Assembly (NCBI RefSeq): GCF_963664735.1
Contig: NZ_OY761553.1
Location: 310,001 to 374,000, forward strand
Reading direction: 5' to 3'
Source: an uncultured Cohaesibacter sp.
GTDB lineage: Bacteria > Pseudomonadota > Alphaproteobacteria > Rhizobiales > Cohaesibacteraceae
DNA: 64,000 nt
Below are positions 467 through 15,628 of the stretch, piece by piece. Within the stretch, counting starts at the first letter, position 1. Every line of letters begins with the position of its first letter. A program made the translations under genes and the position numbers. Below the pieces are notes generated by a model. It searched no databases. It saw nothing but the letters and a program-made list of their open reading frames with translations, and had not been told where the DNA came from.

Positions 467-752
467 GCGCGGATCCTCATGGTTTTGCTGCGAGAAGATT
501 CCACAATAGCGCGTGCCGGTTTAGTTTCCGGACCTAAAGCCTAAAAATGAGGGTATTTCCACTATCGGTTTTGTTGTGCAAAAAAAATCGTGGGTCTACT
601 GATCAGTAACTAACTTTTTGAGAAATGCCGCACTTCGTTCGAATGACTGCAATGGGGAAGTTGTCTACCGGCAAATGCCAACTGGCGAGCGGCGGCTTTG
701 GGCCGTTTGCCCCGAGACAAAAATTGAAAATCGTCGCAGCGTTTCTACTTGA

Positions 753-1640
753 CTAGGATATTTGCCGCTTAGGCATTTCCTCAACAGCCAATTCTACGAA
801 GCGTTTCACGAAGTGGAGATCGTTCTTGTCTTCTGGTGAAACAAGAAATGTTGGATATGTCTGGGAAAGCTCTTCGATGGGACGAGAGGTAATTTGTTGG
901 GAAGGAAAGAAACAGTTCTCCAGCATGATGCCTACGCCAATTCCATGCAGGATTGCTTCTTTGACGACCGGATAGGTGGTCATTTCAACCACCCTGGTCA
1001 AGGAAAGCTTGTGTGTCAGCAATTGCTCGTTGACGACCCGCTGGGTCATGGAGCCGACTTCCGGCAAGACGACAGCTTCATGGACCAGATCACTCAGCGA
1101 TAATCTTTCTCTTTTTGCAAGAGGATGATCGTAACGCATATGCGCGCAGAAGCGTTGGTGTTCAAGCTCTAGGGAATATAGGCCGGGCAGTTGGGTCGGT
1201 TCCGTCACGATGGCAATGTCTACATCCCTATTCTTCAGGCGCTCCATTGCCAGCGTCCAGCTGCCTAGCGAGAAAGTGGTTTTCACATCAGGGTAAAGCT
1301 GGCTGAAGCGAGCGATGATGGGGAGCGCGGGTCTTGGGGCATTGGCCATAATGGAGAGATAGCCGGACTTCAGGTCCCTATAGTCTTCGATTTTCTCTCC
1401 GATCGCCTGTTCCAAGGTACAAAGGCGATCTGACAGGCGAAAAAGCTCTTCCGCCGCCCTTGTCACTTCTAAGCCTTCTCGCCGACGTATGAACAATTTC
1501 GACCCCATAGTCCGTTCCAGATTGGCCACATGCTGTGTGATCGCGGACTGCGTCACGCCGAGTGCGTTGGCCGCTTGTGAGAAGCTTTTCAGCCTTGCCG
1601 TGTATGTGAAGGCTTCGATCTGATGTGCGCTGATTTTCAT
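753..1640 (-). CDS. LysR-family transcriptional regulator
   Basis: This 295-residue protein has the LysR layout. The N-terminal winged helix-turn-helix, about residues 1-60, contains SFSQAANALGVTQSAITQHV. A periplasmic-binding-protein-like effector domain follows from about residue 90. It is divergent from the ABC transporter operon starting at 1797, with about 155 bases between the two starts. LysR proteins normally control such a divergent partner and respond to its substrate or a breakdown product, so it probably regulates transport of the solute. The ligand cannot be read from sequence. Length is typical and the ATG start at 1640 fits the conserved N-terminus. Confidence 0.88.
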   Translation of the reverse strand: MKISAHQIEAFTYTARLKSFSQAANALGVTQSAITQHVANLERTMGSKLFIRRREGLEVTRAAEELFRLSDRLCTLEQAIGEKIEDYRDLKSGYLSIMANAPRPALPIIARFSQLYPDVKTTFSLGSWTLAMERLKNRDVDIAIVTEPTQLPGLYSLELEHQRFCAHMRYDHPLAKRERLSLSDLVHEAVVLPEVGSMTQRVVNEQLLTHKLSLTRVVEMTTYPVVKEAILHGIGVGIMLENCFFPSQQITSRPIEELSQTYPTFLVSPEDKNDLHFVKRFVELAVEEMPKRQIS

Positions 1641-1687
1641 GGGGGGCTCTCAGGCTATTTCGCAGGCATTTTGATCATTTGCTTACA

Positions 1688-1700
1688 ACTAAGGTTTAGT
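1688..1700. promoter_or_regulatory. Candidate operator in LysR/ABC divergent promoter region
   Basis: A perfect 5-bp inverted repeat, ACTAA-GGT-TTAGT, lies in the intergenic region between the LysR gene and the ABC operon. LysR regulators commonly bind short dyads between their own gene and a divergent target. It does not fit the T-N11-A consensus exactly, so assignment to this regulator is inference. Confidence 0.25.
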
Positions 1701-1796
1701 CCCCATTAGCTACGCTTATATGACGTCACCTGTGTGTCAATTCGGATTGGTAAACGACAATTCATCCGGACAAATGACACGATAGGGCGCAAGGGT

Positions 1797-2942
1797 ATGG
1801 CTAGACTCTCTCTCAACGAAATCAAAAAGGAATTCGGGGAAACCAAAGTCCTGAAAGGTGTCTCACTGGACATTCAAGATGGGGAATTCATTTCTCTTGT
1901 AGGGCCTTCCGGCTGCGGCAAGTCTACTCTGCTGCGGATCATTGCCGGGCTGGAACTGCAAACCTCAGGCGATATTCTGATTGATGGTACCAACGTTAAT
2001 CAGGTGCGAGCGACCAAGCGGAACCTGTCGATGGTCTTCCAGTCCTATGCACTCTATCCCCATTTGACTGTTGGTCAGAATATGATGGTGCCACTGCGGA
2101 TGCGTCGGCTTACCAGCGTGGAACGGTTGCCTGCTATCGGAATGATGATGCCATCTCGATGGGAGAAGATGAGAGCGATACACAAACAGGTCAGAGAAAC
2201 CGCGGAAACTCTAAAAATTACCGAGCTGCTTGGCCGTAAACCCGGGGAATTGTCGGGTGGGCAGCGCCAAAGGGTCGCTGTCGGGCGGGCCATGGTTCGG
2301 CAGCCGGTCGCATTCTTGATGGATGAGCCATTGTCAAATCTGGACGCGGCGTTGCGGGTTCATATGCGAGCCGAGATCGCCGACTTGCACCGGCAGCTGA
2401 AAACCACCTTCATTTATGTAACACATGATCAGGCCGAAGCGCTGACTATGTCGGACCGCATTGCGGTTATGATGGAGGGAAACCTTCTTCAGGTAGATAC
2501 GCCCGACGAGATTTATGCCAATCCGATTGACATGCGCGTTGCGCAATTTATCGGCTCTCCGAAAATGAACATTTTACCCGGCGCCATTGATAGCCAAGGA
2601 CAGGTGTCTTTGCCAGGTGAATACAAATTGTTGGGACGGGTCAAATATGGTTCGGGCTCAATAAGCGTTGGTCTGCGTCCCGAACATCTCGATATTGGCG
2701 TCAAGGCACCCAACGGTCGGCATCTCTCTGCCATTGTCCGCCACAAAGAAAATCTCGGGGCTGACTATTTTATCCACGCCGAGCTTGAAGGCGGCGATCA
2801 GAAGATAGTCGTGCGAGCCGTTCCCGATGTGGCGCACCAGCTTTCGATCGGCTCGCATGCGGAGATCTGGCAATCGCAGGAAAAAGCGTCTGTCTTTGGC
2901 AAAGACAACCGGCGCCTTCAGATCGAGAATGAAGGGGCTTGA
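1797..2942 (+). CDS. UgpC/MalK-type ABC transporter ATP-binding protein
   Basis: This cytoplasmic ATPase subunit of 381 residues belongs to the carbohydrate uptake transporter-1 family. Walker A is GPSGCGKST, the signature is LSGGQRQRVAVGRA, and Walker B is FLMDEPLSNLDA. The H-loop is YVTHDQ, and a C-terminal TOBE/OB regulatory domain begins after about residue 240. Between the Q-loop and the signature it carries an extra stretch of about 20 residues (RLPAIGMMMPSRW and flanks) compared with E. coli UgpC. I recall similar insertions in related alphaproteobacterial ATPases. An in-frame ATG exists at 1734. The ATG at 1797 fits the family N-terminus better (MARLSLNEIKKEFG). It is the first gene of the operon, followed 3 bases later by a permease. 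Confidence 0.85.
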   Translation: MARLSLNEIKKEFGETKVLKGVSLDIQDGEFISLVGPSGCGKSTLLRIIAGLELQTSGDILIDGTNVNQVRATKRNLSMVFQSYALYPHLTVGQNMMVPLRMRRLTSVERLPAIGMMMPSRWEKMRAIHKQVRETAETLKITELLGRKPGELSGGQRQRVAVGRAMVRQPVAFLMDEPLSNLDAALRVHMRAEIADLHRQLKTTFIYVTHDQAEALTMSDRIAVMMEGNLLQVDTPDEIYANPIDMRVAQFIGSPKMNILPGAIDSQGQVSLPGEYKLLGRVKYGSGSISVGLRPEHLDIGVKAPNGRHLSAIVRHKENLGADYFIHAELEGGDQKIVVRAVPDVAHQLSIGSHAEIWQSQEKASVFGKDNRRLQIENEGA

Positions 2943-2945
2943 TCA

Positions 2946-3911
2946 ATGTCACACAGACCAAGTCTAAAGCTCACGCCTTATCTATTCATGACGCCTGCTT
3001 TGTTGCTGATGGTCGTGATATTGATTGTTCCCGTTTTTGTGGCTGCAACGCTCTCCTTTACCAACTACACGCTGGGTGCGGAAAGCTTCGACTGGGTGGG
3101 GTGGGAGAATTATGTCAAGCTCTTTTCCCGATCCAGCTATTTGAAAATGTTCAATGCCTCATTGACCTATGTTCTGGTGGTCGTGCCATGTTCGGTCTTG
3201 TTGGGGTTGGGCGTTGCATTGATCATTCGTTCTTTGAAGTTCGGGAGCGAGATTTACAAGACGATCTTCTTTCTGCCCGTTATGGCCACATTGCTCGCGA
3301 TGGCTATTGCATGGGAGTTTGCGTTGCACCCGATCATCGGGGTGATCAATGACACCCTGGAAGCTGGCTGTGATATAGGCTGGCTTCGCATTCTACTCTC
3401 TGGCAGCTGGCTCGGGATCGCTGATCAGGCCAGTTGGTATGGTTCTCATTGCACCACAGGATTTCCTGTCTGGCTGGGCGATCGGAATTATGCGATGCCA
3501 ACGATTGCCTTCATTGGCATTTGGCAGGCGTTCGGCTTCAATATGGTGCTGTATCTTGCTGGCCTCACATCCATCTCACCATCGCTTTATGATGCAGCCG
3601 AGATGGACGGCGCTGACAGTGCCTGGTCCCGTTTCCGGCTGGTTACATGGCCGATGCTTGGCCCAACGCACGTGTTTGTTGTGACCATCACATCCATTCG
3701 ATCCTTTCAGGTGTTCGACACGGTGGAAGCGCTGACCCGAGGCGGGCCTAGCAAGTCGACCTATGTGATGATCTACGCCCTTTATGAGAAGGGCATCAAG
3801 CAGAACCTGATCGGCATGGGCGCAGCCATTACCATGGTGTTCCTGCTGTTCGTTCTCGCCCTGACGGCTATCCAATATCTCTTCGTAAACAGAAAGGCGC
3901 ATTACTCATGA
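2946..3911 (+). CDS. ABC transporter permease, UgpA-type (MalF family)
   Basis: Inner-membrane permease of 321 residues with six predicted membrane segments. The EAA loop that docks the ATPase is DAAEMDGADSAWSRFRLVTWPMLGP. Compared with typical UgpA proteins it has an extra stretch of roughly 25 residues, about residues 139-168, between the third and fourth membrane segments. The stretch includes two cysteines and is rich in W and G. It does not break the frame. The gene starts 3 bases after the ATPase stop, and its end overlaps the next permease start (ATGA), which indicates translational coupling. The partner permease and binding protein follow. The solute is predicted only from context. 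Confidence 0.85.
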   Translation: MSHRPSLKLTPYLFMTPALLLMVVILIVPVFVAATLSFTNYTLGAESFDWVGWENYVKLFSRSSYLKMFNASLTYVLVVVPCSVLLGLGVALIIRSLKFGSEIYKTIFFLPVMATLLAMAIAWEFALHPIIGVINDTLEAGCDIGWLRILLSGSWLGIADQASWYGSHCTTGFPVWLGDRNYAMPTIAFIGIWQAFGFNMVLYLAGLTSISPSLYDAAEMDGADSAWSRFRLVTWPMLGPTHVFVVTITSIRSFQVFDTVEALTRGGPSKSTYVMIYALYEKGIKQNLIGMGAAITMVFLLFVLALTAIQYLFVNRKAHYS

Positions 3912-4804
3912 CGAAGCCATCAAGCTGGTTTGCGGAAGCTGCCAAACACTTTGTGCTGTTGATTGGTGCGCTGATTGTTCTGCTGCCATTCTATCTGATG
4001 ACATCCTATTCGCTAAAGTCTCCGGCTGAAATCGAGAGCAACAGCGGCGGCTTTGTCGGGCGGCAAGAGGTTATGATCGACCAAAAATGCCTCAAGGAAG
4101 GCAAAGCCGAGGCAGCCTGCAAGATGCGTCCGGTCGTTTACAACTATTTGTCCGCGTTTCGCGAAGCGCCTCTGCTGCGCTATCTGATGAATGGCGTCAT
4201 CGTTACGCTCTCCATTTTTCTGCTCCAAGTCGTGGTCGCACTGCCATCGGCCTATGCGTTGGCGAAGCTGCGATTTTGGGGAAGAGATGCGGCTTTCGCG
4301 CTGGTTCTGTTCTGTTTGCTGATCCCAGTGCACGCTATCGCCTTGCCGCTTTATTTGATGTTGGCCAAAACCGGCCTGACCAACACATACGCTGCTCTTG
4401 TGGTTCCTTGGACCATTTCGGTCTTTGGTATTTTCCTCATGCGGCAGTTTTTCATGACCGTGCCTGACGATTTGATTGATGCAGCCCGTATGGACGGGAT
4501 GACCGAGCTGGCGATTGTCTGGCGGGTGATGCTGCCCACGGCCATTCCCGCACTCATGGCATTTGCCATCTTCTCGGTTGTTGCCCACTGGAATGATTAT
4601 TTCTGGCCGCGGATCGTGATTACCGGAGACCGATCTTTGATGACGCCGCCATTGGGGCTGCGCATGTTCAAGTCCGATCTGGATGGCAACGAATATGGTC
4701 CGATGATGGCTGCCGCTACGGTCATTGTAACCCCGCTGGTCGTGGCTTTCATGCTCGCACAGCGCCGCTTCATTGAAGGCATAACAATGAGCGGAATGAA
4801 ATAG
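3908..4804 (+). CDS. ABC transporter permease, UgpE-type (MalG family)
   Basis: Second inner-membrane permease, 298 residues, overlapping the previous gene by four bases. It has an N-terminal membrane helix at about residues 14-33. A periplasmic loop of about 50 residues contains two cysteines (KCLKEGKAEAACKM). Five further helices follow. The EAA motif is DAARMDGMTELAIVWRVMLP. The family works as a heterodimer with the UgpA-type partner, powered by the ATPase. The two loop cysteines could form a disulfide in the periplasm (inference). Confidence 0.85.
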   Translation: MTKPSSWFAEAAKHFVLLIGALIVLLPFYLMTSYSLKSPAEIESNSGGFVGRQEVMIDQKCLKEGKAEAACKMRPVVYNYLSAFREAPLLRYLMNGVIVTLSIFLLQVVVALPSAYALAKLRFWGRDAAFALVLFCLLIPVHAIALPLYLMLAKTGLTNTYAALVVPWTISVFGIFLMRQFFMTVPDDLIDAARMDGMTELAIVWRVMLPTAIPALMAFAIFSVVAHWNDYFWPRIVITGDRSLMTPPLGLRMFKSDLDGNEYGPMMAAATVIVTPLVVAFMLAQRRFIEGITMSGMK

Positions 4805-4856
4805 GGGCGTGCAAAAGGCTTTGGGGCATCCGGCGTCGCGGTGCCCTGAAAAAGAA

Positions 4857-4884
4857 ATCCTGATGTACGGCAATACATCAGGAT
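4857..4884 (+). promoter_or_regulatory. Intercistronic hairpin ahead of the binding-protein gene
   Basis: A perfect 11-bp stem with a 6-base CGGCAA loop (arms ATCCTGATGTA and its complement) sits between the second permease and the binding-protein gene. No U-run follows, so it is not a classical terminator. Such hairpins in transporter operons often act as RNA processing or stabilising elements that raise binding-protein expression. That role is inference here. Confidence 0.5.
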
Positions 4885-4924
4885 CACATTTTAAATGATA
4901 ACGAAAGCATACAGGAGAAGTTTC

Positions 4925-6166
4925 ATGAAACTTGCCAATATTCTTGGAAGTGCTGCTATCATCGCTGCTACGATGGTAACTTCCGCCCAAGCTGTGACAA
5001 TCGAAGTTGGATATCCATATTCCAGCCTGTTCGATGTAACCTTCCAGCGTATTCTTCCGATGTTCAAGGAAGCGCATCCAAAGATCGAAGTCAAGCTGCG
5101 TGCGACTTACGAGAACTATGAAGATGCCACCAATACTGTTCTGCGCGAGTCAGTCGCCGAAAAGCTACCGGATGTGACGTTTCAGGGATTGAACCGTCAG
5201 GCTCTGATGGTGGATAAAAAAATTGCCCACTCTCTGGAAGGCTTTATTGCAAACGAGCCTGATTTCTCAAAAGACGGCTATCACAAAGCGATGCTTGATC
5301 TGGGAACATTCGGAGGCGAAGTCTATGGCCTTCCTTTCGCAGTTTCCCTTCCTGTTGGCTACTACAACATGGATGCACTGAAAAAGGCTGGCATCGAAAC
5401 CCTGCCCAAAACCTGGGACGAAGTCGCCGTAAACTGCGGCAAGCTACGTGATGCAGGCTATAAAAATCCGCTTTTCTGGGGCTGGAACATCACCGGCAAC
5501 TGGTTCCTGCAAGCTCTGATGTGGAGCCAGGGCGAACCAATCATCAAGGACGGCAAAGTCAACTTTGACGGCGAAGCTGGTCTCGTTGCATTCAACACCA
5601 TGGATAAATTGTTCCGTGAATGCAAAATGCTGAACTTGTCTGTTAGTGATGCCGGTAAACCATTTGCTGCCGGTGAAGTTGCTATGCACTTCTGGTCTAC
5701 GTCTTCTGTGGGCGCTATCGAGCGCACCAAAGGTGACTTCGAAATGAAAACGGGTGAATTTCCGGGCATTGATGGCGCTCCGATTGGCCTGCCCGCCGGT
5801 GGTAATGCCGGTATGATCGTTTCCACCTCTGACGATCCGGAAGTTCTTAAGGCTGCTTGGGAGTTCCTTAAATTCTGTACCTCCGGCAAAGGCGCAGCGG
5901 TTGTTGCTGAGACCACCGGTTACATGCCTCCGAACAAAGCTGCAAACGACTTGCTCGCCGACTTTTATTCCCAGAATCCAAACAAACTGACTGCAGTGAA
6001 ACAGGCCGGTCTGTTGCGTGACTGGATCGCCTATCCAGGTGATAACAGCCTTGCAATCACCCAGGTTCTCTATGATGGACTGGAAAGCATCGTGACCGGT
6101 GAAGCAACCGATATGGAAGAGCTGCAAGAAGAGTTGTCTGAAGAAGTCGCCGACCTGCTTCCATAA
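4925..6166 (+). CDS. Extracytoplasmic solute-binding protein, UgpB/family 1
   Basis: Periplasmic binding protein of 413 residues. The start at 4925 is chosen because AGGAGAAG lies 5 bases before it and it begins a clean signal peptide (MKLANILGSAAIIAATMVTS, cleaved after AQA). An in-frame ATG 30 bases upstream lacks these features. The mature protein matches the UgpB-like class: IEVGYPYSSLFD at the N-terminus, a YGLPFAVSLPVGYYNMDALKKAG segment and the WEFLKFCTSG motif. It delivers the solute to the adjacent permease pair. UgpB relatives bind glycerol-3-phosphate or glycerophosphodiesters, but ligand residues cannot be assigned here. The neighbouring phosphodiesterase supports a phosphodiester ligand. 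Confidence 0.85.
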   Translation: MKLANILGSAAIIAATMVTSAQAVTIEVGYPYSSLFDVTFQRILPMFKEAHPKIEVKLRATYENYEDATNTVLRESVAEKLPDVTFQGLNRQALMVDKKIAHSLEGFIANEPDFSKDGYHKAMLDLGTFGGEVYGLPFAVSLPVGYYNMDALKKAGIETLPKTWDEVAVNCGKLRDAGYKNPLFWGWNITGNWFLQALMWSQGEPIIKDGKVNFDGEAGLVAFNTMDKLFRECKMLNLSVSDAGKPFAAGEVAMHFWSTSSVGAIERTKGDFEMKTGEFPGIDGAPIGLPAGGNAGMIVSTSDDPEVLKAAWEFLKFCTSGKGAAVVAETTGYMPPNKAANDLLADFYSQNPNKLTAVKQAGLLRDWIAYPGDNSLAITQVLYDGLESIVTGEATDMEELQEELSEEVADLLP

Positions 6167-6277
6167 TACTAGCCGCAATCAAACCGCTAGAGCTAATAGG
6201 GTGGACGGACTTTTCGTCCACCCAACGCGATAGCTACGCCTAGGCTTTGGTAAACTGATAAGAAAAGCTCATTTACA

Positions 6278-7102
6278 ATGAAAATCCTGCAATTGACTGA
6301 TATCCATCTGACCACACCCGGACAAACAATTCTGGGGCGTGACTCCAACACCAACTTTCGCAAAGCTCTATCGCATGCCCTGAATGACCACGCCGACGCG
6401 GATCTGCTTGTGATCACCGGTGATCTGTCAGACTGGGGCGATGAGGCGGACTATAAACGCCTAAGAGGCATTCTGGACGAGCTACCCGTCGAGTGGGCGT
6501 TGTGCATTGGAAATCACGATAATCGGGAAAGGTTCCTGTCTGTCTTTCCTGAATTGGCAGATGAGAACGGGTTTGTTCAATCTGTTCGCGATATGGATGC
6601 AGGTCGTTTTGTCTTCCTGGATACTAACCAACCGGGCACGCATGCGGGATGCTATTGTGACCAGCGCAAGGCATGGCTGGAAAGCCAGTTGGAGAGTTGC
6701 GACGGTCCAATTTATCTTTTCATGCACCACAATCCAATGCCGGTTCATCTTGCGCCCCTTGATAGCATTCGGCTCCACCAAGATGACGCGTTTCGCGAAT
6801 TTATTGCAGGGCATGCGCAAAAAATTCGGCATATTTTCTTCGGGCACTGTCATCTGCCATTGGCTGGATCTGTTGCAGGTATTCCAACCACGTCCCTGAG
6901 GGGAACAAACCATCAAGGCTTTGCCAATTTCTCCGAGAAAGAATTGCTCACGAGTTCCCATCTGCCACAGGCCTATGGCGTTGCCTTTCTTGCAGATGAC
7001 TATGTGACCGTTCATATGATCGAATTTGGATATGAAGGGGAACTGAAAATCGAGGGATCACCAGACTATAAGCAATGGGATCGAGCCAGCATGGAACGAT
7101 AG
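6278..7102 (+). CDS. Class III cyclic-nucleotide/glycerophosphodiester phosphodiesterase (CpdA/GpdQ-like)
   Basis: Calcineurin-like metallophosphoesterase of 274 residues with all metal-ligand blocks of the family: DIH near the N-terminus (LQLTDIHLT), GD in VITGDLSDWGD, GNHD in CIGNHDNRE, the histidine block MHHNPMP, and the C-terminal GHCH (FFGHCHLPL). There is no signal peptide, so it is cytoplasmic. The family hydrolyses phosphodiesters such as cAMP or glycerophosphodiesters using a dinuclear metal centre. It lies about 110 bases downstream of the binding-protein gene on the same strand and is probably part of the operon, cleaving the imported solute (inference). Confidence 0.85.
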   Translation: MKILQLTDIHLTTPGQTILGRDSNTNFRKALSHALNDHADADLLVITGDLSDWGDEADYKRLRGILDELPVEWALCIGNHDNRERFLSVFPELADENGFVQSVRDMDAGRFVFLDTNQPGTHAGCYCDQRKAWLESQLESCDGPIYLFMHHNPMPVHLAPLDSIRLHQDDAFREFIAGHAQKIRHIFFGHCHLPLAGSVAGIPTTSLRGTNHQGFANFSEKELLTSSHLPQAYGVAFLADDYVTVHMIEFGYEGELKIEGSPDYKQWDRASMER

Positions 7103-7556
7103 CGGAAACATGTTGGGCCTCGATGATACCGCTTGATCCAAAGGGCCGTGAAGCCTTCATGCAGCAGCCAATGCTACTCTTGGTTCGAATGTCTGGAATG
7201 CGGAAAATGACTTCTGACTTGGAGCGGCACTGAATGACCGGTTAGGGCCGATTCTGTTGAAGACAGAGAATTTTGATCTGAAAAGGAAACTGAAACAGGC
7301 TGGCGTTGTATTGAATGAGCAAGTGCAGACGGGTCGCCTCGTGCCGCCGAACAGGTGGTTTTGATTGGCGATATGGAGTGCATCAAGGCAGGGATTTGAA
7401 TTGCCCTAGAATTGTGACTGAAGTTGTGTGTAGATTTCCCTGGACGATTCCCCGTTGTGAAGCAATTCAATATGGCCAACATGTCCTTGATCGGCTTGAC
7501 ACTTGACGGTCCGCTCGATCAACGACATGAACTCCATCAATTATAAAAAAATGTAA
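7103..7556. other. Gene-poor stretch between host operon and mobile element
   Basis: About 450 bases without a convincing gene. Reading frames here are short and resemble no family I know. Composition stays like the host until about 7,520 and then becomes AT-rich. It may hold the left end of the element plus decayed host sequence. A GGTTCGAATG at about 7,180 resembles a tRNA T-loop, but no cloverleaf can be built around it. Confidence 0.4.
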
Positions 7557-9509
7557 TCAGGTTTGGCATTTTTGAATATGTGCTTTAAGTGCAGTTTGGC
7601 GACAATCAGCAGCATTTTGAGATTGAACTGTTTCTGCAAAAGTATCACGATTTCCTAGCAAAATCACCTGTTCAGATGCTCTGGTAATTGCAGTGTAGAG
7701 TGCTGATCGTTCAAGAAGCTTGTTGGGATGGACAATGACAATCACCCGTTGCCATTGGCTTCCTTGACTTTTATGGACTGTCATTGCGTAAGCGAGGTCA
7801 ATCAATTCATGATCATTTTCCTGATCAAGAATGACATTGCCAATGTCATCAAATTGAATTGTTCTGTCTCCGACATATTGCCCAAGCGTGCCGTTTGTTA
7901 ATCCCCGATCAAAGTCATTTTTGAGGAACATGACGGGATCACCAATCCGTATTTGAGAGGCACCTGGGAAGCATAGACGATCTGCACCTCTCCATTGAGA
8001 GAAAGTGTTATTGATCATTTTTACACCATCAACATTGTTTCTCCTTGGTGAGAGGATACGTAGCTGGCCTCTTTCAGTTTGGCTTGATAGAGATTTGGAT
8101 ATTTCAATTGCTGTTTTGGCTGTGTGTTCGATCTTGCAATCACAGAAGAATACGCCTTTTGCAGGGCCAGAGTATGTTGAAAGATCCGGCACAATGCCAT
8201 TTCTGACCTGCTCAGCAATGGATGGGATGCCTGATGATTTTTCCTGACGATAAATGCGATCAAGGGTCACTGTAGGGATTGTATTGACAAGTTCATGGAA
8301 TGGTTTTCCTGCGCCAATTGGAGCCAATTGAGCAGGATCACCAACCAATAGAATTCTAGCTTGCGGAATTTTTCTGATCAGATCCCAGATTGTGGGTAAA
8401 TCCACCATAGAGGCTTCATCAATAACCAGCACATCTTGGTTGTTGAATGGGCGTTGCCGGGTTTCCAATCCCTGCTCAGTTTTGGAGATTTCACGAGCCA
8501 ATGGTGTCATTTGGACACTGGCGATTGTTCGTGCAGGAACATTGGTGGCCTGTTCAAGCCTGCGTGCTGCGCGACCTGCAAGTGCCATGGGATGAGGTGT
8601 CAGATTGGCTTGATTGAGGATATCAAACACAGTTCGCAACACGGTGGTTTTTCCGGTTCCTGCATATCCTGCAATACAAGCGATTTGAGAGCGTAGTGGT
8701 AATTCAATGGCAGCTTTTTGGGTTCCATCAAATCTAATGGAATTATCAGTTTCAATTTTGGTTATGAAGGAATTGATTTTGTCTGGTGTTATTGAACCAG
8801 TGAATAGTGTATCAGCATTTGTTTGTTTGGCTTTAATTGTCTCTGCCAGTTCACGCTCCATAAGGGCTGAACCCAACCCCTGAATGCCATTGGCGAACCG
8901 GATGGCCACCCGAGCGTTGATTGCTTTGTCAATCGCTTCTGAGAGGGTAGGAGAGCCATTTTCTAAATGAAGAAGACTGGATGCAAGGGATACAATCTTT
9001 TCTTCATTTGCCCATGTGTGTCCATCGTTGCGGATTGTTGCCAGAGCAGCCTCTACAGAAGCAACAATGCGACGGGGGTCAGTTTGATTGATTCCAGCTG
9101 CTTGACCCAGGCTATCTGCTTTATGGAATCCAGCAAACATTGTCAGGAGGTAAGGGTTGTTTTTGATTGCTAAAGCGCTTTTACCACCCCAACTAGATAT
9201 GATTTGGAATGCTATTTTCCGATCAATGTTGATTTGATCAAGCCAAATTGCCAGATCTCGTTCTTGAGTGATTTCCTGATAGCGTGATGTTAATTGCGCA
9301 ATCACATCAGTCGGGAGAATGGTTTCCAGATCTGGATCATTTTCACCAATGGCTCGATCAAGATCATCTCCAAATCGGCTGACCAAGTTGCGCGCTCTTG
9401 CTGGTCCAATTCCAGGAATTTCTTTGACAAGCAAATGTCTCAAAGAGGCCTGTTCATAGATAGGTTGTGTTGAGACTGAGCTTGGATCAATGGCATTCAT
9501 ACCCATCAC
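7557..9509 (-). CDS. RecD2-like SF1B DNA helicase of the recombinase element
   Basis: 650 residues. A helix-hairpin-helix-like GIGPARARNLVSRFG lies at residues 33-47, followed by a helical region. The SF1 helicase core contains Walker A GYAGTGKTT (281-289), Walker B LVIDEASMVD (361-370), motif III GDPAQLAPIG (390-399), motif V MTVHKSQGSQW (576-586) and motif VI YTAITRA (605-611). This is the RecD2/TraA-type 5'-3' helicase arrangement. It is shorter than chromosomal RecD2 and has no nuclease or relaxase domain. Its start overlaps the stop of the previous gene (ATGA), so it is the last gene of the element operon. It may unwind or remodel DNA during excision or integration (inference). Confidence 0.85.
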   Translation of the reverse strand: MMGMNAIDPSSVSTQPIYEQASLRHLLVKEIPGIGPARARNLVSRFGDDLDRAIGENDPDLETILPTDVIAQLTSRYQEITQERDLAIWLDQINIDRKIAFQIISSWGGKSALAIKNNPYLLTMFAGFHKADSLGQAAGINQTDPRRIVASVEAALATIRNDGHTWANEEKIVSLASSLLHLENGSPTLSEAIDKAINARVAIRFANGIQGLGSALMERELAETIKAKQTNADTLFTGSITPDKINSFITKIETDNSIRFDGTQKAAIELPLRSQIACIAGYAGTGKTTVLRTVFDILNQANLTPHPMALAGRAARRLEQATNVPARTIASVQMTPLAREISKTEQGLETRQRPFNNQDVLVIDEASMVDLPTIWDLIRKIPQARILLVGDPAQLAPIGAGKPFHELVNTIPTVTLDRIYRQEKSSGIPSIAEQVRNGIVPDLSTYSGPAKGVFFCDCKIEHTAKTAIEISKSLSSQTERGQLRILSPRRNNVDGVKMINNTFSQWRGADRLCFPGASQIRIGDPVMFLKNDFDRGLTNGTLGQYVGDRTIQFDDIGNVILDQENDHELIDLAYAMTVHKSQGSQWQRVIVIVHPNKLLERSALYTAITRASEQVILLGNRDTFAETVQSQNAADCRQTALKAHIQKCQT

Positions 9510-9943
9510 TCCAATCCTGGAAAGATGCGTCCGCCAAGGGGAGCCAGAGAGCTTACAGCTTGATGTATTCGATTATTCTCTCGTTTGAGGGCTTCATTTT
9601 CTGCTGTTTTCTCTGCGAGCAATTTTTTCAGACGCTGGATTTCGGTGTCTTTTGGATCTGCACCATCATGATTTTGATTTTGCTGTGTTGGCTTAGACAG
9701 AGACCACAAGCCAGCATTTGCAAGATTGGCATTTGCAGCGTCAATCATGTTGTTGAGGGATTTATTGGTATAAAGCGTAGAGCGGGCAATGCCGCATTCA
9801 GCTGCAATATCGCTTTTACTCAACCCATTTTTGCCCACATAGTTGGACCAATCATTGTTTTTTGATCGAGTATCCAGCCAATCTCCGAGGCGTTGAATGG
9901 CTTGTTCGGCCTGCTGTTGGGTGCTGATGCTTTTCTTGCTCAT
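9506..9943 (-). CDS. Small HTH/coiled-coil accessory protein of the element (TnpC-like)
   Basis: 145 residues. The middle reads like a helix-turn-helix: SKSDIAAECGIARSTLYTNK at about residues 42-61. A glutamine/asparagine-rich linker follows, then a heptad-type coiled coil (EIQRLKKLLAEKTAENEALK) at about residues 101-120. No catalytic motif is present. The plan, a DNA-binding helix pair plus a coiled coil, resembles the small TnpC accessory proteins of Tn554-type transposons, but sequence identity cannot be asserted. It is followed without a gap by the helicase gene and preceded by another small gene 15 bases upstream. A role in orienting or regulating the recombinases is inference. Confidence 0.6.
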   Translation of the reverse strand: MSKKSISTQQQAEQAIQRLGDWLDTRSKNNDWSNYVGKNGLSKSDIAAECGIARSTLYTNKSLNNMIDAANANLANAGLWSLSKPTQQNQNHDGADPKDTEIQRLKKLLAEKTAENEALKRENNRIHQAVSSLAPLGGRIFPGLE

Positions 9944-9958
9944 GATAGAATTCCCGTT

Positions 9959-10339
9959 TTATCGGGGTTGTCGTGGTCTGCCAATGGTTTCCAACGGAAT
10001 ACCGTGATTGATGGCCAATTGGTGAAGGCGCTCGATGTGATCTGCAAACATTTTGTTCTCCAAAGAGAGAGTTGTCAGATCTTTGGCTTCTTGGGCTTTC
10101 GCAATATTTTCTTGTTTTTTTTGGTTGTTATTGTCTTTGGCTTTTAGTTGCGCAATCCGTGCTGATCTTGCCGCTTGTATTGGTTGCTTGCGTGACAGGG
10201 CAATTTCACCATATGGGATGCCGGCTTTTTGTGCTCTTTTATGGATTTCTTTCCAGGTTGGTTTTGTGCGGAATTTATTGATGATATCTATTACGGCACT
10301 GATGTCCTGATCGGACATGTTGGGATTACCTTTACTCAC
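9959..10339 (-). CDS. Small basic helical accessory protein of the element
   Basis: 126 residues, basic at both ends. The start is a GTG at 10339 with AAGGAG seven bases before it. An internal ATG exists at residue 8. The N-terminal half looks like a helix-turn-helix (KPTWKEIHKRAQKAGIPYGE). A lysine/glutamine-rich helix and a predicted coiled coil (LSLENKMFADHIERLHQLAI) follow, with a short basic tail. It overlaps the end of recombinase C by eight bases, indicating coupled translation. I do not recognise a named family. Its position between the recombinases and the second small protein suggests a TnpC-like partner (inference). Confidence 0.55.
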   Translation of the reverse strand: MSKGNPNMSDQDISAVIDIINKFRTKPTWKEIHKRAQKAGIPYGEIALSRKQPIQAARSARIAQLKAKDNNNQKKQENIAKAQEAKDLTTLSLENKMFADHIERLHQLAINHGIPLETIGRPRQPR

Positions 10340-12068
10340 CAGTCAGCTCCTTTTTTGATGATTGCATCTGTTTCATTTGGGTTCTGAATGCAGAGACCCG
10401 ATCAGACAATTTGGGGCTTGTGGTACATTGGTAATCACCGCGAGCAATCAAATTGCCATCAGGGATTTTGGGATCATTGAGATCAGCTTGTAGTGCCTTG
10501 GCTCCTTTGAGTTGTTTTTCTATCAAAGGAATAAGGTTTGGGTTTCTCAGAAGGCGACTATTTTTCTTTTTAAGTTCTTCAAGGCTTCCAAGTTGATTTT
10601 CCAGGGATTTGATTTTGGACGTGATGTAATCAAGAGATTTTTTGGAGCCTTTGCAGACAAAATACCGATCACAAGACAGACAGTTTACTGCCATTGCACA
10701 TGGCTCTTGGATCAATGAGCCAATGCAATATCCAAAAGGAGAGATTGAGATCATGGATTTGTTTTTCATGGTCTCAAGGACTTGTTGGTCAGGATCAAGA
10801 ACCTGTTTGGAAGGTGGTGCAATGGTCACTGTCTGGTAGGCTTTTTGGGCCTGAAGGGCAAGAATGTCATCAGACTGAAGGCCATCATAATCTTCCACCT
10901 CATAGCCATGCACAGCAAGCCGTTCTTCATCAGTTCTGTGATCATATGCAGCATTTTGAGAGAGAGATTTCCTGCCTGACCACATTGCAATAATTGGCTC
11001 GGATAGACCGGCTTGTTGGGCAATGGTGTTTAGAAAGTGGCGCAGGTCATGGGTGTTGATATCGGGATAGGATCCATTGGGAAGTGTGATGTCCAACCGT
11101 TCCCAGATTGTTTTGACTAATGGTTGGCCATCAGACAAAATAAGGTCAAGTGTTGATGATGAAATGGTGTCAAAGAATACTGGTGAGTAAAGTTGCGTTC
11201 TGGATTCCAATCTATTTCTGTAAAACAGCAATAGAGCGTTATCAGCACGCAATTGATATCCTTTGTGATTCACCACATAAGGCCATTCATTTTTGAATGT
11301 CTTTTTGAATTCCTTTTGGAATGTTTCCCACCATTCAGTTTGGAAGGTTTCAAAACAATAGAGATTGTCACTGTTATGAATTTTGGTTCTGTTTTTCCAT
11401 GTCTTTTTGAAGTTGCTTTTCCAGAAGTTATGTTCGTTCAGAGTTCTTTCATTGGGTAAACCAAGGAGCAGACGAATGTCAGTTTCACTTATCTTGTCAG
11501 TGGCTTTGATATGGGAGAGGTGGTCAGGAATTGGGATTACTCCTGGATTTTCAACAATGAAGGCTGCCGTTTTCCTCGCCTCTATCCCATAGGAGCGGAT
11601 GATTTCGATGCAGCGATGAGCCACCCACTGGACAGCAGATGGTATTGGTTTGACAACCGCTTTGCCACCTTTCACAGGGAACCAGACAAGGCCATACTTG
11701 AAGTCAAGATTATCATGCTGATCTTCAGTAATCTGTGGCCCATATTTCTCAACCGGAGCAGCAATGATTTCGCAGTCAGAAGGCAAACGCCAAAGTTCTG
11801 AGACCCGGCAGGGATGGGTTGCCAACAAATTGGCCATCATGACATTGACCCGCAGGTAGTCAAAATCCTGATTGGATTGATAAGCACTGTCATTAGGCTC
11901 CAGACGCTTGAATGCATCGGCCAACGCAACAATTTGATGCCAGTTGACCATTTTTACATCGGATGGAGAGATAGGGGCTTTATCTGTTTTGGGAGGCTTA
12001 AATTGCTTCTTGTCAAACCAAGGTAAAACATCATAATTTGATAGTATTTCAAAACTATAAAGCAACAT
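10332..12068 (-). CDS. Tyrosine recombinase C, catalytic and zinc-binding part (after frameshift)
   Basis: 578 residues from a nominal ATG, but the true protein probably begins in the -1-shifted frame upstream (11954-12538). The tyrosine recombinase catalytic set is visible: arginine in HPCRVSELWRLP, the HxxR box in THDLRHFLNTIA, W in IAMWSGRKSLSQ, and the nucleophile candidate in NAAYDHRTDEE. The C-terminus holds a cysteine cluster (CIGSLIQEPCAMAVNCLSCD and RYFVC) that could bind zinc, then a long basic coiled coil. The ATG at 12068 lacks a ribosome binding site and lies in the frameshift region, so it may not be a real start. If the frameshift is a true mutation, this recombinase is broken. 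Confidence 0.7.
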   Translation of the reverse strand: MLLYSFEILSNYDVLPWFDKKQFKPPKTDKAPISPSDVKMVNWHQIVALADAFKRLEPNDSAYQSNQDFDYLRVNVMMANLLATHPCRVSELWRLPSDCEIIAAPVEKYGPQITEDQHDNLDFKYGLVWFPVKGGKAVVKPIPSAVQWVAHRCIEIIRSYGIEARKTAAFIVENPGVIPIPDHLSHIKATDKISETDIRLLLGLPNERTLNEHNFWKSNFKKTWKNRTKIHNSDNLYCFETFQTEWWETFQKEFKKTFKNEWPYVVNHKGYQLRADNALLLFYRNRLESRTQLYSPVFFDTISSSTLDLILSDGQPLVKTIWERLDITLPNGSYPDINTHDLRHFLNTIAQQAGLSEPIIAMWSGRKSLSQNAAYDHRTDEERLAVHGYEVEDYDGLQSDDILALQAQKAYQTVTIAPPSKQVLDPDQQVLETMKNKSMISISPFGYCIGSLIQEPCAMAVNCLSCDRYFVCKGSKKSLDYITSKIKSLENQLGSLEELKKKNSRLLRNPNLIPLIEKQLKGAKALQADLNDPKIPDGNLIARGDYQCTTSPKLSDRVSAFRTQMKQMQSSKKELTGE

Positions 12069-12538
12069 GTTTTTTGTCTTCTGGCAAAAGATTTGATGAT
12101 ATTTTCAATATCAATGATTTGTATGTTTATTATGCTGGATATATTACTAATTATGCAGCAATCTATAAATTTTCTGATATTCTTTGTTTTGAATATTATT
12201 GTTGAGGAAGAGGTTGATTTGCCAATATCATAGTTTTTCCTGATCTCTGCAATGATTAGAGATTTCAAAAAATCTTGCCAGTGAGATGGGTATGGAGTTT
12301 TGCCATTAATTGGGTAAAACAGAATGTTTGGTTTTTTTGAAGTACTGGAACTTGATGATGTAATATTTGATAGATCCCATTTTGGATCTTGAGGATCAAT
12401 ATCCCAATTGGGCATTTCGCCAGATTGCATCAATTCAGAATTTTTCTGATCATGAATAAAATCAGCAAGGGCTTGTTCTTCAGCAGAGATTAAAGAAGCT
12501 TGATGAAGATTGATTATGGTTTGATTATTCATTTTCAT
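11954..12538 (-). CDS. N-terminal part of recombinase C, separated by a -1 frameshift
   Basis: This frame gives a protein of up to 194 residues beginning MKMNNQTIINLHQAS. It looks like the core-binding arm of a tyrosine recombinase up to about residue 155 (IENIIKSFARRQK). After that the frame runs antisense to sense into the next gene and loses family character. The following recombinase frame begins exactly at the run of six A (complement of 12070-12075), in the -1 phase. Joining the two gives one protein of about 730 residues, with FARRQK continuing into NMLLYSFEILSNYDVLP. The start overlaps the end of recombinase B (stop at 12525). Either a programmed or transcriptional slip, a decayed gene, or a sequencing error explains the break. 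Confidence 0.6.
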   Translation of the reverse strand: MKMNNQTIINLHQASLISAEEQALADFIHDQKNSELMQSGEMPNWDIDPQDPKWDLSNITSSSSSTSKKPNILFYPINGKTPYPSHWQDFLKSLIIAEIRKNYDIGKSTSSSTIIFKTKNIRKFIDCCIISNISSIINIQIIDIENIIKSFARRQKTCCFIVLKYYQIMMFYLGLTRSNLSLPKQIKPLSLHPM

Positions 12539-14141
12539 ACCCCCCACATGGCAGTTTGGCGTTGACTGCGTCTTGTCGGCGCATTTCAGCGCCGATGATC
12601 ATGGCTTCATAACGCTGTAACTGAGCCATTACATCGGGATCAAACCTATTGTTCCAATTGCCATTTTCATCATAGAGATGAGATTTTCTTAAATTCAATA
12701 TGTCCCACAAAAGCTGGAAGTCAGCATTTTCATAGATCTGGAACTTATGACAAGACAGGCATGGCCATGGCTCTGACCCATGTAGTTCATCATGGATCGG
12801 GCAGCCTTGACATTCCCCACCTCCAATCAATGCAACATCTTCAAGATTATTGTTGGTCATGGCTTCAGTTGAGATGACGGGATCAAGTTTGGTTTCAATG
12901 ATTTCGCGGCTCACAACGGGATTGCGCCAAAGATCGCCATATTTGTCCATCAATCGGAAGAATTTGGGGTCACGTAACTGATAGCAAAGGGTGGCAAGAT
13001 CAACATAGGACTGGCATGATGCCTCAGAAGCATGTCCCAAAAACAGGCCAATTTGGGCAGCGCTGTAGCCTTTGAGTGCTTTTCTGGTGGCAACGGTGTG
13101 CCGCTCGCGAGTGAAGTTGTAGACCATTTTCTTTTCTTCACCAGAGCGACTGGTTGTTAATCCCAGGCTATCAAGAGCAGCTTTGAACCTCTTTTCTATA
13201 TGTGGTTCAGTGGCATGTCCTTCATAGCCAATTTCTTTACTGGGTTCCGGAATAAGCCCGTTGGAACCGAAGGATCCAGGCAATCCTTTAGGTGTAAAGA
13301 GTGGTAATTTGTACCACTCGGCTTTTGGTATGCCGATGAGGCGTTGAGCCAAATAGGCTTCCATGGCATTGAGAACTGAACCGCCAATGGGCCAGAAATG
13401 GGCCTGATGGATGCTTAGATCATTCTTTTCAAAAGGCCAGCGAATTTGTGGTTGGGGATCATCCATGATGGGATTGATTGATGGGATATGCACATCGCTG
13501 ATTTTCATGCGAGAGAGTGAGCCAGGCCGCATACCATAATGTCGAGGCAACTGCACAATCAGATATTTTTCATCTGTCCATTGGCCTTTGGCATATGCTT
13601 CCTCAATGGCTTTGTCCTGTATGGCCACTTCACCTTCAAGCCAGGGCCCTTTTTCAGGATCCAATGTGACCACGTAATCCGTTTTTTCAGGATTTCGCAG
13701 CATTTTAAGCGAGGTGTCAGTGACGTTTGGAAAGATATCAGGGTCTGATTTACGCCCATGATATATAAATATTTTCAGCATTGCAGGGTAGTTTGTTCCA
13801 GCAGGTGGATGATCCAACCATTGCAAAATCTGATCATCAGAAAAATCATCAAGAATGCTGTTGGTTTGGGATGAAGTGCATCGAACAAAATCACGAACTG
13901 AGTTAAAAATTCTGATTACACTATTATCAGAGAGTTTGTTTCCAGAAATGGAAAACGTAAATATTTTTTTGATTTTCTCTAGAAGATAATTTGTAATGAA
14001 TGGTTCCAATTGACCAAAATCTATTGATTTACTATAAAGTGTCCAAATATTTGATGATGGGTCAATGTCAAATCCAGATCGAGATTTTATATTTCTATTG
14101 ACTGCAATGATTTCAGAGAGCTTTTTATTGTTTGAATTCAT
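12525..14141 (-). CDS. Tyrosine recombinase B with C-terminal zinc-binding motif
   Basis: 538 residues. The N-terminal arm region covers about residues 1-180. The catalytic half contains the first arginine in HYGMRPGSLSRM, a second box FTRERHTVATRKAL, GLFLGHASEAS and the nucleophile candidate in CQSYVDLAT. The usual HxxR histidine is replaced by threonine (T-R-E-R-H). A C-terminal cluster (GGECQGCPIHDELHGSEPW then PCLSCHKF) could bind zinc. The gene overlaps the previous recombinase by one base (TAATG), a coupled start, and overlaps the next by about a dozen. The second position and zinc-type C-terminus recall TnpB of Tn554 relatives, which is inference from layout. Confidence 0.8.
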   Translation of the reverse strand: MNSNNKKLSEIIAVNRNIKSRSGFDIDPSSNIWTLYSKSIDFGQLEPFITNYLLEKIKKIFTFSISGNKLSDNSVIRIFNSVRDFVRCTSSQTNSILDDFSDDQILQWLDHPPAGTNYPAMLKIFIYHGRKSDPDIFPNVTDTSLKMLRNPEKTDYVVTLDPEKGPWLEGEVAIQDKAIEEAYAKGQWTDEKYLIVQLPRHYGMRPGSLSRMKISDVHIPSINPIMDDPQPQIRWPFEKNDLSIHQAHFWPIGGSVLNAMEAYLAQRLIGIPKAEWYKLPLFTPKGLPGSFGSNGLIPEPSKEIGYEGHATEPHIEKRFKAALDSLGLTTSRSGEEKKMVYNFTRERHTVATRKALKGYSAAQIGLFLGHASEASCQSYVDLATLCYQLRDPKFFRLMDKYGDLWRNPVVSREIIETKLDPVISTEAMTNNNLEDVALIGGGECQGCPIHDELHGSEPWPCLSCHKFQIYENADFQLLWDILNLRKSHLYDENGNWNNRFDPDVMAQLQRYEAMIIGAEMRRQDAVNAKLPCGGYENE

Positions 14142-15427
14142 TATTTGTTGTCTTTCTTGAGATCTTTGACCATATCGTCAAACATGATCTGACTGATTTC
14201 AGAAGTCGTGTAATAGGTTGGCATTTTGGAATTCAGGGACCAGCGGAAAAAGTCTCTCATGCCTTTTTCAATTGCAGCTTGAGGTTTGTTTTGAGCACGC
14301 ATTCGACGCACATAATTGATGGCGCATAGATGACGCAAAGCATGCGTTCCAACCCCCTCTACACCTGCGCCCCAAGCAAGTTTTTTGAATGCATCCATAT
14401 AGCTGTAGATGGCTAGAGGGGCGCCAATATTTCTTTTCCGTGCATCAGCCACGCAAAAAGCAAAACTATGATCAAGGTTTTCAGAAAGCCCATTTTCCTC
14501 AGCAAATTCAATTACTTCATCTTGATACACTTCAAGCCAATGATTGTATTTTGCAAAAGAAGAATTAGGGATGGTTACAATGCCCTTGCCGGTTTTGGTG
14601 GCTGGAACCACTTTTCGAGTTTCTTCTGGGTCATTGTGACGATCACGCACATGGATTGAGTTTCTTGTAGTGCCATGCGCCTCAATAATGTTCTCGAATT
14701 TCAGGGCAAGAACCTCGGACATCCTCAATCCACCATGATATTGGAAGTCAAACATTGCAGCATTTCGGGCGGCAATCACTGGATTACGCCACAAATCATA
14801 AGGATTGTAGGTTTTCATGAATTCATTAAGTTTATGCAATGTATTCGCACTGTAATCTGAGCCAGATCTGGAGCTTCTGACCCGAGGTACTACAATTTTT
14901 TGTTGAATTAGTAGCTTTCTTTTTTTTCTAAGATCTTTTTCATCTGGATGAACAATGTAGTGTTTATCAAGACAAACATCTCCTTGTTTCATCAGCCATT
15001 TCATATATGCAATCACATGGCTTTTTCTGAGTGATTGGGTAATTGATCCTGCATATTGCGTAGGAAAAAATTCATTAGGGAGCAAAACATGAGCACCCAA
15101 GTTCTTTTTGGCTAATTGTTTTGACAACTCAGAAAGCTTGATTTCCAGAAGATTGTTGATTGCAGATAGCTCATGATCTTCAAGGCCAGTTTGATAACTT
15201 AATCGATATTCTGGATTCTCAATTTCAGCATATTCACAGACGGTCAGAAAATGTTTGATGGCATCAAAAACAGATTGGCGTGTGTTTTCAGGCTGGCCTC
15301 TTAAACCAACAACAAGATATCCCGTCACAAATGGATTGATCTTATGATCATTGTCGTAAGCAACAAAAATCCTCTCACCATTGGTCTTGGCTGCTATTTT
15401 AAGATGTAGCACGATTGCTTTGGACAT
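14141..15427 (-). CDS. Tyrosine recombinase A (first gene of the trio)
   Basis: 428 residues from the ATG at 15427, which is preceded by GGTGA. An in-frame ATG at 15493 lies inside the promoter candidate and is less likely. Catalytic residues: arginine in YHGGLRMSEVLALKFENI, HxxRH in GVGTHALRHLCAINYV, tryptophan in DFFRWSLNS at the GH/W position, and tyrosine in MPTYYTTSE near the C-terminus. A basic lysine-rich arm-binding region (DLRKKRKLLIQQKI) lies at about residues 165-180. Tyrosine recombinases cut and rejoin DNA through a 3'-phosphotyrosine. It ends one base into the next gene. Position and length fit the TnpA-like member of a trio. Confidence 0.85.
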   Translation of the reverse strand: MSKAIVLHLKIAAKTNGERIFVAYDNDHKINPFVTGYLVVGLRGQPENTRQSVFDAIKHFLTVCEYAEIENPEYRLSYQTGLEDHELSAINNLLEIKLSELSKQLAKKNLGAHVLLPNEFFPTQYAGSITQSLRKSHVIAYMKWLMKQGDVCLDKHYIVHPDEKDLRKKRKLLIQQKIVVPRVRSSRSGSDYSANTLHKLNEFMKTYNPYDLWRNPVIAARNAAMFDFQYHGGLRMSEVLALKFENIIEAHGTTRNSIHVRDRHNDPEETRKVVPATKTGKGIVTIPNSSFAKYNHWLEVYQDEVIEFAEENGLSENLDHSFAFCVADARKRNIGAPLAIYSYMDAFKKLAWGAGVEGVGTHALRHLCAINYVRRMRAQNKPQAAIEKGMRDFFRWSLNSKMPTYYTTSEISQIMFDDMVKDLKKDNK

Positions 15428-15470
15428 TTTTGAATCACCAAATATGAGTATTGCTATCCGTTCAATATAT

Positions 15471-15498
15471 ATTGTAAATGTATATTTTGGCATAGCAA
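15471..15498 (-). promoter_or_regulatory. Sigma70-type promoter candidate for the recombinase operon
   Basis: On the minus strand TTGCTA and TACAAT are separated by 16 bases, a near-consensus pair. Transcription would start at about 15463, leaving a leader of about 35 bases before the ATG at 15427. This supports the choice of that start. Confidence 0.4.
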
Positions 15499-15551
15499 AT
15501 AGAACAAAAAAGGAATATAGGGTTAATTTATATTTATCTAATTGTTTTTAA

Positions 15552-15570
15552 AGATTAAATTATTTAATCT
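15552..15570. repeat. Perfect inverted repeat near the right end of the element
   Basis: AGATTAAAT and its exact complement are separated by a single T, giving 9-bp arms. It lies 54 bases upstream of the promoter candidate of the recombinase operon and close to the presumed right boundary. It could be a recombinase or repressor binding site. The short centre makes a terminator unlikely. Confidence 0.5.
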
Positions 15571-15601
15571 GTGTGGGTTTGTGGTGATACCCCATATAAT
15601 T

Positions 15602-15628
15602 CTCACCATTCTTTGAATGGTGGGTTTT
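15602..15628 (+). terminator. Intrinsic terminator at the right boundary of the element
   Basis: The stem CACCATTC/GAATGGTG, extended by CT/GG, has a TTT loop and is followed by GGTTTT. It lies just outside the recombinase operon. Confidence 0.5.

Follow-up and report, generated by a model that had tools for sequence, protein, structure and literature searches.

A GInt-type mobility operon followed by a candidate optional helicase unit on a Cohaesibacter genomic island

The operon and its island

The 64,000-nt stretch of DNA analyzed here (the window; positions 310,001 to 374,000 of contig NZ_OY761553.1, assembly GCF_963664735.1) comes from an uncultured Cohaesibacter sp. and contains an operon for three tyrosine recombinases (A, B and C), two small proteins (S1 and S2) and, as its last gene, a RecD2-like helicase (H) (Table 1). 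As judged from sequence comparison, a mobile island of about 24.4 kb is inserted downstream of clpA, and these six genes, located at one end of it, are its mobility machinery. All of them lie on the minus strand, and adjacent genes overlap, touch or are at most 16 nt apart. The block is AT-rich, with 37.5-45% G+C per kilobase versus roughly 47-54% in the adjoining kilobases. An earlier sequence-only reading of this DNA had described the same gene content, operon structure and composition, and coordinates and family matches bear it out on all three. Its recombinase C holds only in part, as the recombinase is present but occupies two frames instead of one open frame. Its proposal of a compact element without cargo had to be abandoned, as the island carries about 16 kb of cargo and extends beyond position 7557 and past the window edge.

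Table 1. Features of the operon and the island in the window (aa, amino acids)
Feature	Position	Strand	Description or basis
Recombinase A	14141..15493	-	450 aa; GinA position, adjoins island end; Pfam Phage_integrase 34.2 bits
Recombinase B	12525..14141	-	538 aa; GinB position; NCBIfam NF041502 92 bits (cut-off 350)
Recombinase C, N-terminal piece	11954..12547	-	197 aa; matches C profile positions 3-98, E 2.4e-6
Recombinase C, main piece	10332..12068	-	578 aa; HxxRH..WSGRK..Y and Cys4 motif; frame differs from that of the N-terminal piece
S1	9959..10339	-	126 aa; helix-turn-helix-like with long C-terminal helix; GinD position
S2	9506..9943	-	145 aa; helix-turn-helix-like with coiled coil; VPA1267/DUF6262-like
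H	7557..9509	-	650 aa; RecD2-like superfamily 1B (SF1B) helicase without the first ~70 model positions; 4-nt overlap with S2
Island part inside window	1..15595		flank comparison with relatives
AT-rich A-proximal island end	15494..15595		homology to relatives begins at 15596-15599
Right junction (attR region)	15584..15606		comparison with 8 uninterrupted relatives
Cargo part in window	1..7102		LysR-type regulator (named by reading), sugar-type ABC transporter, calcineurin-like phosphoesterase; continues leftward

Recombinase A exceeds the Pfam Phage_integrase cut-off of 27.1 bits, and B and the main piece of C fall below it, at 19.3 and 19.2 bits. The catalytic columns (R, H, R, W, Y) of A are retained in nearly all of 52 aligned rows and those of B in nearly all of 54. 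H matches the Pfam families AAA_30, HHH_RecD2 and UvrD_C_2, and it aligns to the RecD2 model TIGR01448 from model position 71 at 370 bits, below the 500-bit cut-off. S2 shows sub-cut-off similarity to NCBIfam NF040697 (VPA1267_fam; 58.7 bits, cut-off 90) and to Pfam DUF6262 (23.1 bits, cut-off 29). We take both families to be small partners of recombinases, and DUF6262 to be TnpC-like. In the family scans of the window proteins, S1 matched no NCBIfam family and a single Pfam entry at chance level. For both S1 and S2, AlphaFold2 predicts helix-turn-helix-type short helices at the N terminus and a single long helix at the C terminus (mean predicted local distance difference test score 87.2 and predicted template modeling score 0.54 for S1; 78.6 and 0.48 for S2). 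The Foldseek comparison proposed in the earlier reading for every protein was carried out for S1 and S2, and neither found a solved structure at E ≤ 0.001. Homology between the two small proteins received an hhalign probability of 16%.

Because its two pieces match different parts of one C profile, built without the window sequence, we read C as one gene split between frames; the main piece covers profile positions 219-648 (E 3.6e-72). This split may be a sequencing error; because of it, the window copy may also be immobile by itself. Among 57 aligned C rows, the first arginine is retained in 53 of the 53 and the tyrosine in 56 of the 56 that have a residue there. C-terminal to the catalytic domain, C relatives such as L029:7717-9762 carry a Cys4 motif (GxC..PC..CxxC) that appears to resemble a zinc-binding domain and is present in nearly all of the 57 rows with residues at these positions (here and below, L denotes a locus and G a genome).

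The boundaries of the island were placed by comparison with relatives of the same genus. Eight of 17 matched the SnoaL-like gene on the right flank, which is the right-hand neighbor of A; the other nine gave no match. In all eight, clpA and then the SnoaL-like gene lie within a few hundred bases of each other at an uninterrupted site. The comparison of occupied and empty sites suggested in the earlier reading gave a clear outcome, with the window genome's own flanks 24.4 kb apart. On the clpA side, homology to the empty site ends at C1:301169. The right flank starts at C1:325596, and on the empty-site sequence the two flanks overlap by 4 bases. The island accordingly spans C1:301170-325595; its right end is window position 15595 and its left end lies beyond the window. 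A is located about 100 bases from the right end, and the far (left) end is AT-rich, with 34% G+C over its first 220 bp. Direct repeats of right-end sequence were sought inside the island, and none was found at 9 of 9 positions in 6000-8000 or at 10 of 11 in 6900-7800. The cargo of about 16 kb, which extends past the left window edge, includes an Mrr restriction gene, a TacA-like antitoxin gene, a serine resolvase and a 1154-aa protein without a family, in addition to the LysR-type, transporter and phosphoesterase genes of Table 1.

Recurrence and relation to known elements

The order A-B-C-S1-S2-H recurs elsewhere at about 20-37% protein identity to the window, in G003 and G016 of the same genus and in G068 and G401 of the class, and these distant matches indicate that the arrangement is more than chance. 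The search for this order in other genomes, also suggested in the earlier reading, was thus productive, and element ends could be defined in two cases. In G003, the six genes (22-32% identical to those of the window) lie at one end of a 39.8 kb island, and G002 is empty at the same place. The ends of this island bear direct repeats, one of 15 nt and one of 16 nt, that align imperfectly, with 13 matches, 2 mismatches and 1 gap. Matches to the C profile at E ≤ 1e-8 occur in 4 of 385 sampled genomes of the class, the window's own genome included; this class sample, like the phylum sample below, was a drawn subset.

When genome contigs were scanned with an alignment of three C proteins, 51 loci with a C relative were recovered, among them the near-copies L046/L047, L050/L087 and L065/L091. 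Refined profiles place H in 13 of the 51, find it absent from 29 and leave 9 unjudgeable, where scoring used E ≤ 1e-3 and at least 2.5 kb of sequence after S1; the profiles were trained on loci found by a pattern with C, so these shares are not prevalences. Among the hosts with H are Alpha-, Beta- and Gammaproteobacteria as well as three bins, one of Halodesulfovibrio, one of Acidobacteriaceae and one named Deltaproteobacteria. Twelve plasmids, all rhizobial, match S2. In the six that were fetched, H follows S2 in every case (broken in two of them) and an A-B-C core lies upstream in five. The S1 profile detected nothing in these six plasmids, though the annotated ones have a small gene in its place, nor did it detect S1 in L136 and L137. 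Two arrangements were noted in passing. L070:7194-21980 (Paraburkholderia elongata) holds two tandem six-gene sets of differing sequence, the second cut by the locus end, which suggests stacked insertions beside one ssb gene; in L046/L047 (Tepidimonas), two A-B-C-S1 sets, identical in the tree, are about 22 kb apart.

On this evidence the window island is a GInt-type element (three-integrase island; termed a Tn6571-family transposon in PMC10121019), in which A, B, C and S1 are the putative counterparts of ginA, ginB, ginC and ginD. GInts are defined by ginABCD at one end, all four genes being essential, by cargo, by an AT-rich 3' end and by short imperfect direct repeats (PMC5385486). The window island likewise has three adjacent tyrosine recombinases on one strand with catalytic residues, C being frame-split in this copy, and a small helix-turn-helix or helix-loop-helix type protein in the same operon. 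S1 directly follows C, as GinD follows ginC, a match of position and form. The operon occupies one island end, variable cargo follows within the GInt range of 2.5-70 kb, the other end is short and AT-rich, and insertion appears to be site-specific. GInt insertions are flanked by imperfect direct repeats of 10-17 nt; the ends of the window island show a precise junction with a weak repeat, and the G003 sister element has the clearer pair given above.

Several GInts sit at ssb (PMC5385486), as do many relatives of the window island. Of 41 loci with enough upstream sequence, 30 have ssb no more than 2.5 kb upstream of A; H is present in 11 of these, absent from 16 and not judged in 3. Of the 11 loci that lack ssb, three have H (L028, L041, L079), and the window's own element, which differs from GInts in its site downstream of clpA, is not adjacent to ssb either. 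Two plasmid elements at ssb, from E. coli and P. aeruginosa, have A-B-C-D without H, one of them with A broken by an IS1 element; their C also retains the arginine and the tyrosine. This retention is a further difference from GinC as published, which by description lacks either the first arginine (PMC5385486) or the RHRY motif (PMC10214605); that trait belongs to the description of GinC and is no part of how GInts are defined. As to taxonomic range, PMC10214605 reports no ginC-ginD blocks for Alphaproteobacteria, although gin operons from this class are mentioned in PMC5385486.

The most marked difference is the presence of S2 and a RecD2-like helicase after the ginD position. The word 'helicase' is absent from the main text of PMC5385486, and the literature searched, supplementary tables not covered, yielded no report of a helicase in GInt-like elements or of exchange of an S2-helicase pair between cores. 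What appears to be new is therefore the S2-helicase extension of GInts and its exchange between core types; the island type itself is known.

Other multi-recombinase elements are less close. The sequence-only reading had named recombinase-in-trio (RIT) and Tn554-type elements as kin, with the gamma-mobile-trio (GMT) as another possibility, and had not named GInts, which proved closest. Tn554 resembles the window operon in its tyrosine recombinases with a small accessory protein, and S2 has the weak DUF6262 match given above. Identity with Tn554 was rejected on gene content only, TnpA-TnpB-TnpC being two recombinases and one small protein versus three recombinases and two small proteins, a helicase and genomic-island cargo in the window. 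RITs also have three adjacent tyrosine recombinases, but with 34-bp terminal inverted repeats and archetype recombinases of 315-410 aa (PMC10214605), and A, B and C are longer. RIT identity was rejected because the terminal 60 bases of the window island show no significant inverted match: the best ungapped 12-mer matched at 9 of 12 positions and was equalled by 664 of 1000 shuffles. SE elements, too, have at one end an operon of several recombinases and a small accessory protein; they are set apart by published description, in which the order is IntA-Tfp-IntB-Srap and the sequences are distinct from those of GInts (PMC10214605). GMT elements are likewise a recombinase core of an island, and the locus name of the S2 model, VPA1267, falls in the range of the Vibrio island VPaI-6 (VPA1254-1270; PMC1464126). 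GMT identity was rejected on NCBIfam models, not on gene order: no Gmt model, GmtY among those searched, matched any window protein at E up to 1. The first recombinases of some relatives reach GmtY at 15.6-32.1 bits (cut-off 340).

The S2-H pair as a unit

S2 and H look like an optional unit placed directly after the ginD position, which recurs in other islands and behind other recombinase sets. A small gene matching the S1 profile directly follows C in elements both with and without H, and in many loci of differing surroundings S2-H is found immediately after the last core gene, at the same position and on the same strand. We mapped H onto a tree of concatenated A, B and C, a quick LG+G4 reconstruction of 47 rows (18 with H, 23 without, 6 not scored; 11 of 58 rows excluded as incomplete) in which the window, L093, L042, L028, L041 and L092 have long branches. 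The presence of H requires 10 changes on this tree, at least nine of them forced by well-supported branches. The proposal of the sequence-only reading that the helicase might define a distinct element family is not upheld, as elements that have H and elements that lack it intermingle on a single recombinase tree and both kinds are often found beside ssb. Pairwise distances of H and of A, B and C agree across 17 loci (Spearman 0.676; none of 2000 permutations as high). The patchiness of H on the tree and this co-divergence therefore suggest an old association of S2-H with the core, with repeated loss and some exchange.

Exchange between core types appears directly in one genus. In G643, S2-H follows an A-B-C-S1 core, and in G755 it follows a different core, of 478, 1114 and 224 aa. 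The sole DNA match found between these two runs from the start of S2 to 11 bases past H (2615 bp, 83.4%). The same pair follows at least three recombinase cores other than the GInt type. Besides the G755 core, which the core in L134 resembles, there is one of 446, 752, 674 and 163 aa (L128/L129), one of 671, 821 and 159 aa (L130/L131) and one of 607, 650 and 360 aa (L135), in which one protein is related to a protein of L128. Three of the first genes match the A profile weakly, at 44.5, 24.2 and 15.0 bits, and the remaining tested proteins of these cores gave no match to a GInt profile at E ≤ 0.01. Large proteins of 607-1114 aa are found in L131:7039-11523, L133:7647-10991 and L135:6420-10192, and some of them show an HxxR...Y recombinase signature. 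Scans of the L131 and L133 proteins gave no NCBIfam match and no meaningful Pfam match. These large proteins may represent uncharacterised recombinase cores. In L128:5711-6163, a dUTPase-like gene (named by reading) lies between the recombinase core and S2-H.

S2 and H are also closely tied to each other. Among same-genus RecD2 matches at 322-414 bits, S2 is on the same contig in 8 of 8, with inserted genes between a short S2 and H in G001 and a contig that starts within S2 in G010. The S2 family is matched in 11 genomes of a 398-genome sample of the phylum; 10 of these have H after S2, with a 1.5 kb gap in L138. The 4-nt overlap seen in the window is possible in 19 of 32 pairs, and the two genes are probably translationally coupled. 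Loci without H have no common replacement gene after S1, the largest cluster of shared genes within 5 kb covering 5 loci. A separate set in L139:4503-12466 (1176, 704, 178, 143 and 470 aa) has a 143-aa protein with a weak match to the S2 profile and no helicase match nearby.

Possible role in movement

We consider it reasonably probable that the six genes are the GInt-type mobility operon of the island, with S2-H an optional unit that acts in its movement. In the mechanism we propose, A, B, C and S1 would make site-specific strand exchanges between both island ends and the target. S2, with its predicted DNA-binding helix-turn-helix and coiled coil, would bring H to the junction formed in recombination, and H, as a 5'-3' SF1B helicase, would unwind the element there. 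Unwinding could allow the element to be copied out as a circle while one copy stays behind; alternatively, it could enable host replication to resolve the junction. That S2 loads H and that H acts in movement is what we infer, and the likeliest role of the pair is to help replicative ('copy-out') movement. Such a role fits the published observation that several GInts gave circles without a detectable empty site, from which their excision 'might be replicative' (PMC5385486). It also fits the proposal of a copy-out-like route for SE elements (PMC10214605). More tentatively, S2-H might be a transposition cassette shared by several distinct multi-recombinase machines, a plug-in passed between GInts and at least three other core types that would load a helicase at tyrosine-recombinase junctions and turn cut-out into copy-out.

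Several points weigh against a role in movement. The evidence on mechanism is computational. H is absent from 29 of 42 judgeable loci and so cannot be a general requirement, and accounts of published GInts name ginABCD as the set that is required. S2 and H do not always coincide: G700 has an S2-family match without H, and L079, one of the 13 loci with H, has no detected S2. When the H labels were shuffled on the tree, the mean was 13.5 changes, and 10 of 500 shuffles needed as few as the observed 10; the label is somewhat clustered, far from a single origin. The window row itself sits on a long branch with an unsure placement. The island's own ends form a precise junction with a weak direct repeat (5 of 11 positions by eye). 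In addition, H matches two PADLOC models of RecD-like defence proteins, typeIV_RecD (239 bits) and RecD_like (150 bits).

Those PADLOC matches would suit another explanation, in which S2-H is a defence or element-exclusion module that occupies a privileged cargo slot behind the mobility operon and takes no part in movement. Defence systems are known from GInts (PMC10121019), the window island itself carries an Mrr-type restriction gene, and S2-H moves between cores as a unit. We nonetheless regard this as doubtful, given that the pair keeps its place and strand behind the last core gene while the surroundings differ, that H diverges together with A, B and C, and that S2 resembles, below cut-off, families which are presumably small recombinase partners.

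H could also be a captured host RecD2 that has no function in recombination and instead assists repair or replication of an island that has just entered the cell, be it through natural transformation or with a plasmid. H is RecD2-like and GInt-type operons are found on conjugative plasmids, but the 29 element H proteins separate with full support from the four compared RecD2 proteins that score over the family cut-off, and a general repair helicase would need neither S2 nor a fixed place; we judge this improbable. That the six genes are a fixed chromosomal remnant instead of a mobile island is very improbable indeed. The split of C in this genome speaks for a remnant, but the empty site in all eight relatives compared contradicts it as to origin, and relatives have the six genes at other sites.

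A part for S2-H in movement would bear on a puzzle of GInts, in which circles form and empty sites often go undetected; PMC10214605 knew of no GInt transposition reproduced in the laboratory. An element-encoded helicase paired with a small DNA-binding protein, which some members have and close relatives lack, offers a natural contrast between replicative and conservative movement. If it is indeed a shared cassette, S2-H would account for the lack of an empty site with some of these elements. The pair also widens the list of parts by which cargo-carrying islands can be recognized; in the rhizobial plasmid record L169, the annotation of these genes goes no further than two integrases, three hypothetical proteins and an ATPase.

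Similar Mrr restriction genes, the window island's own among them, were observed on or beside several same-genus islands with differing recombinase cores (L035:4549-5481, L028:15654-16586, L128:260-1192, L130:15644-16576 and L131:960-1892). The window island's own copy is 87-88% identical to the other four, which are 96-99% identical among themselves. This gene is located at the far end of the window's island and within a few kilobases of H on the other islands.

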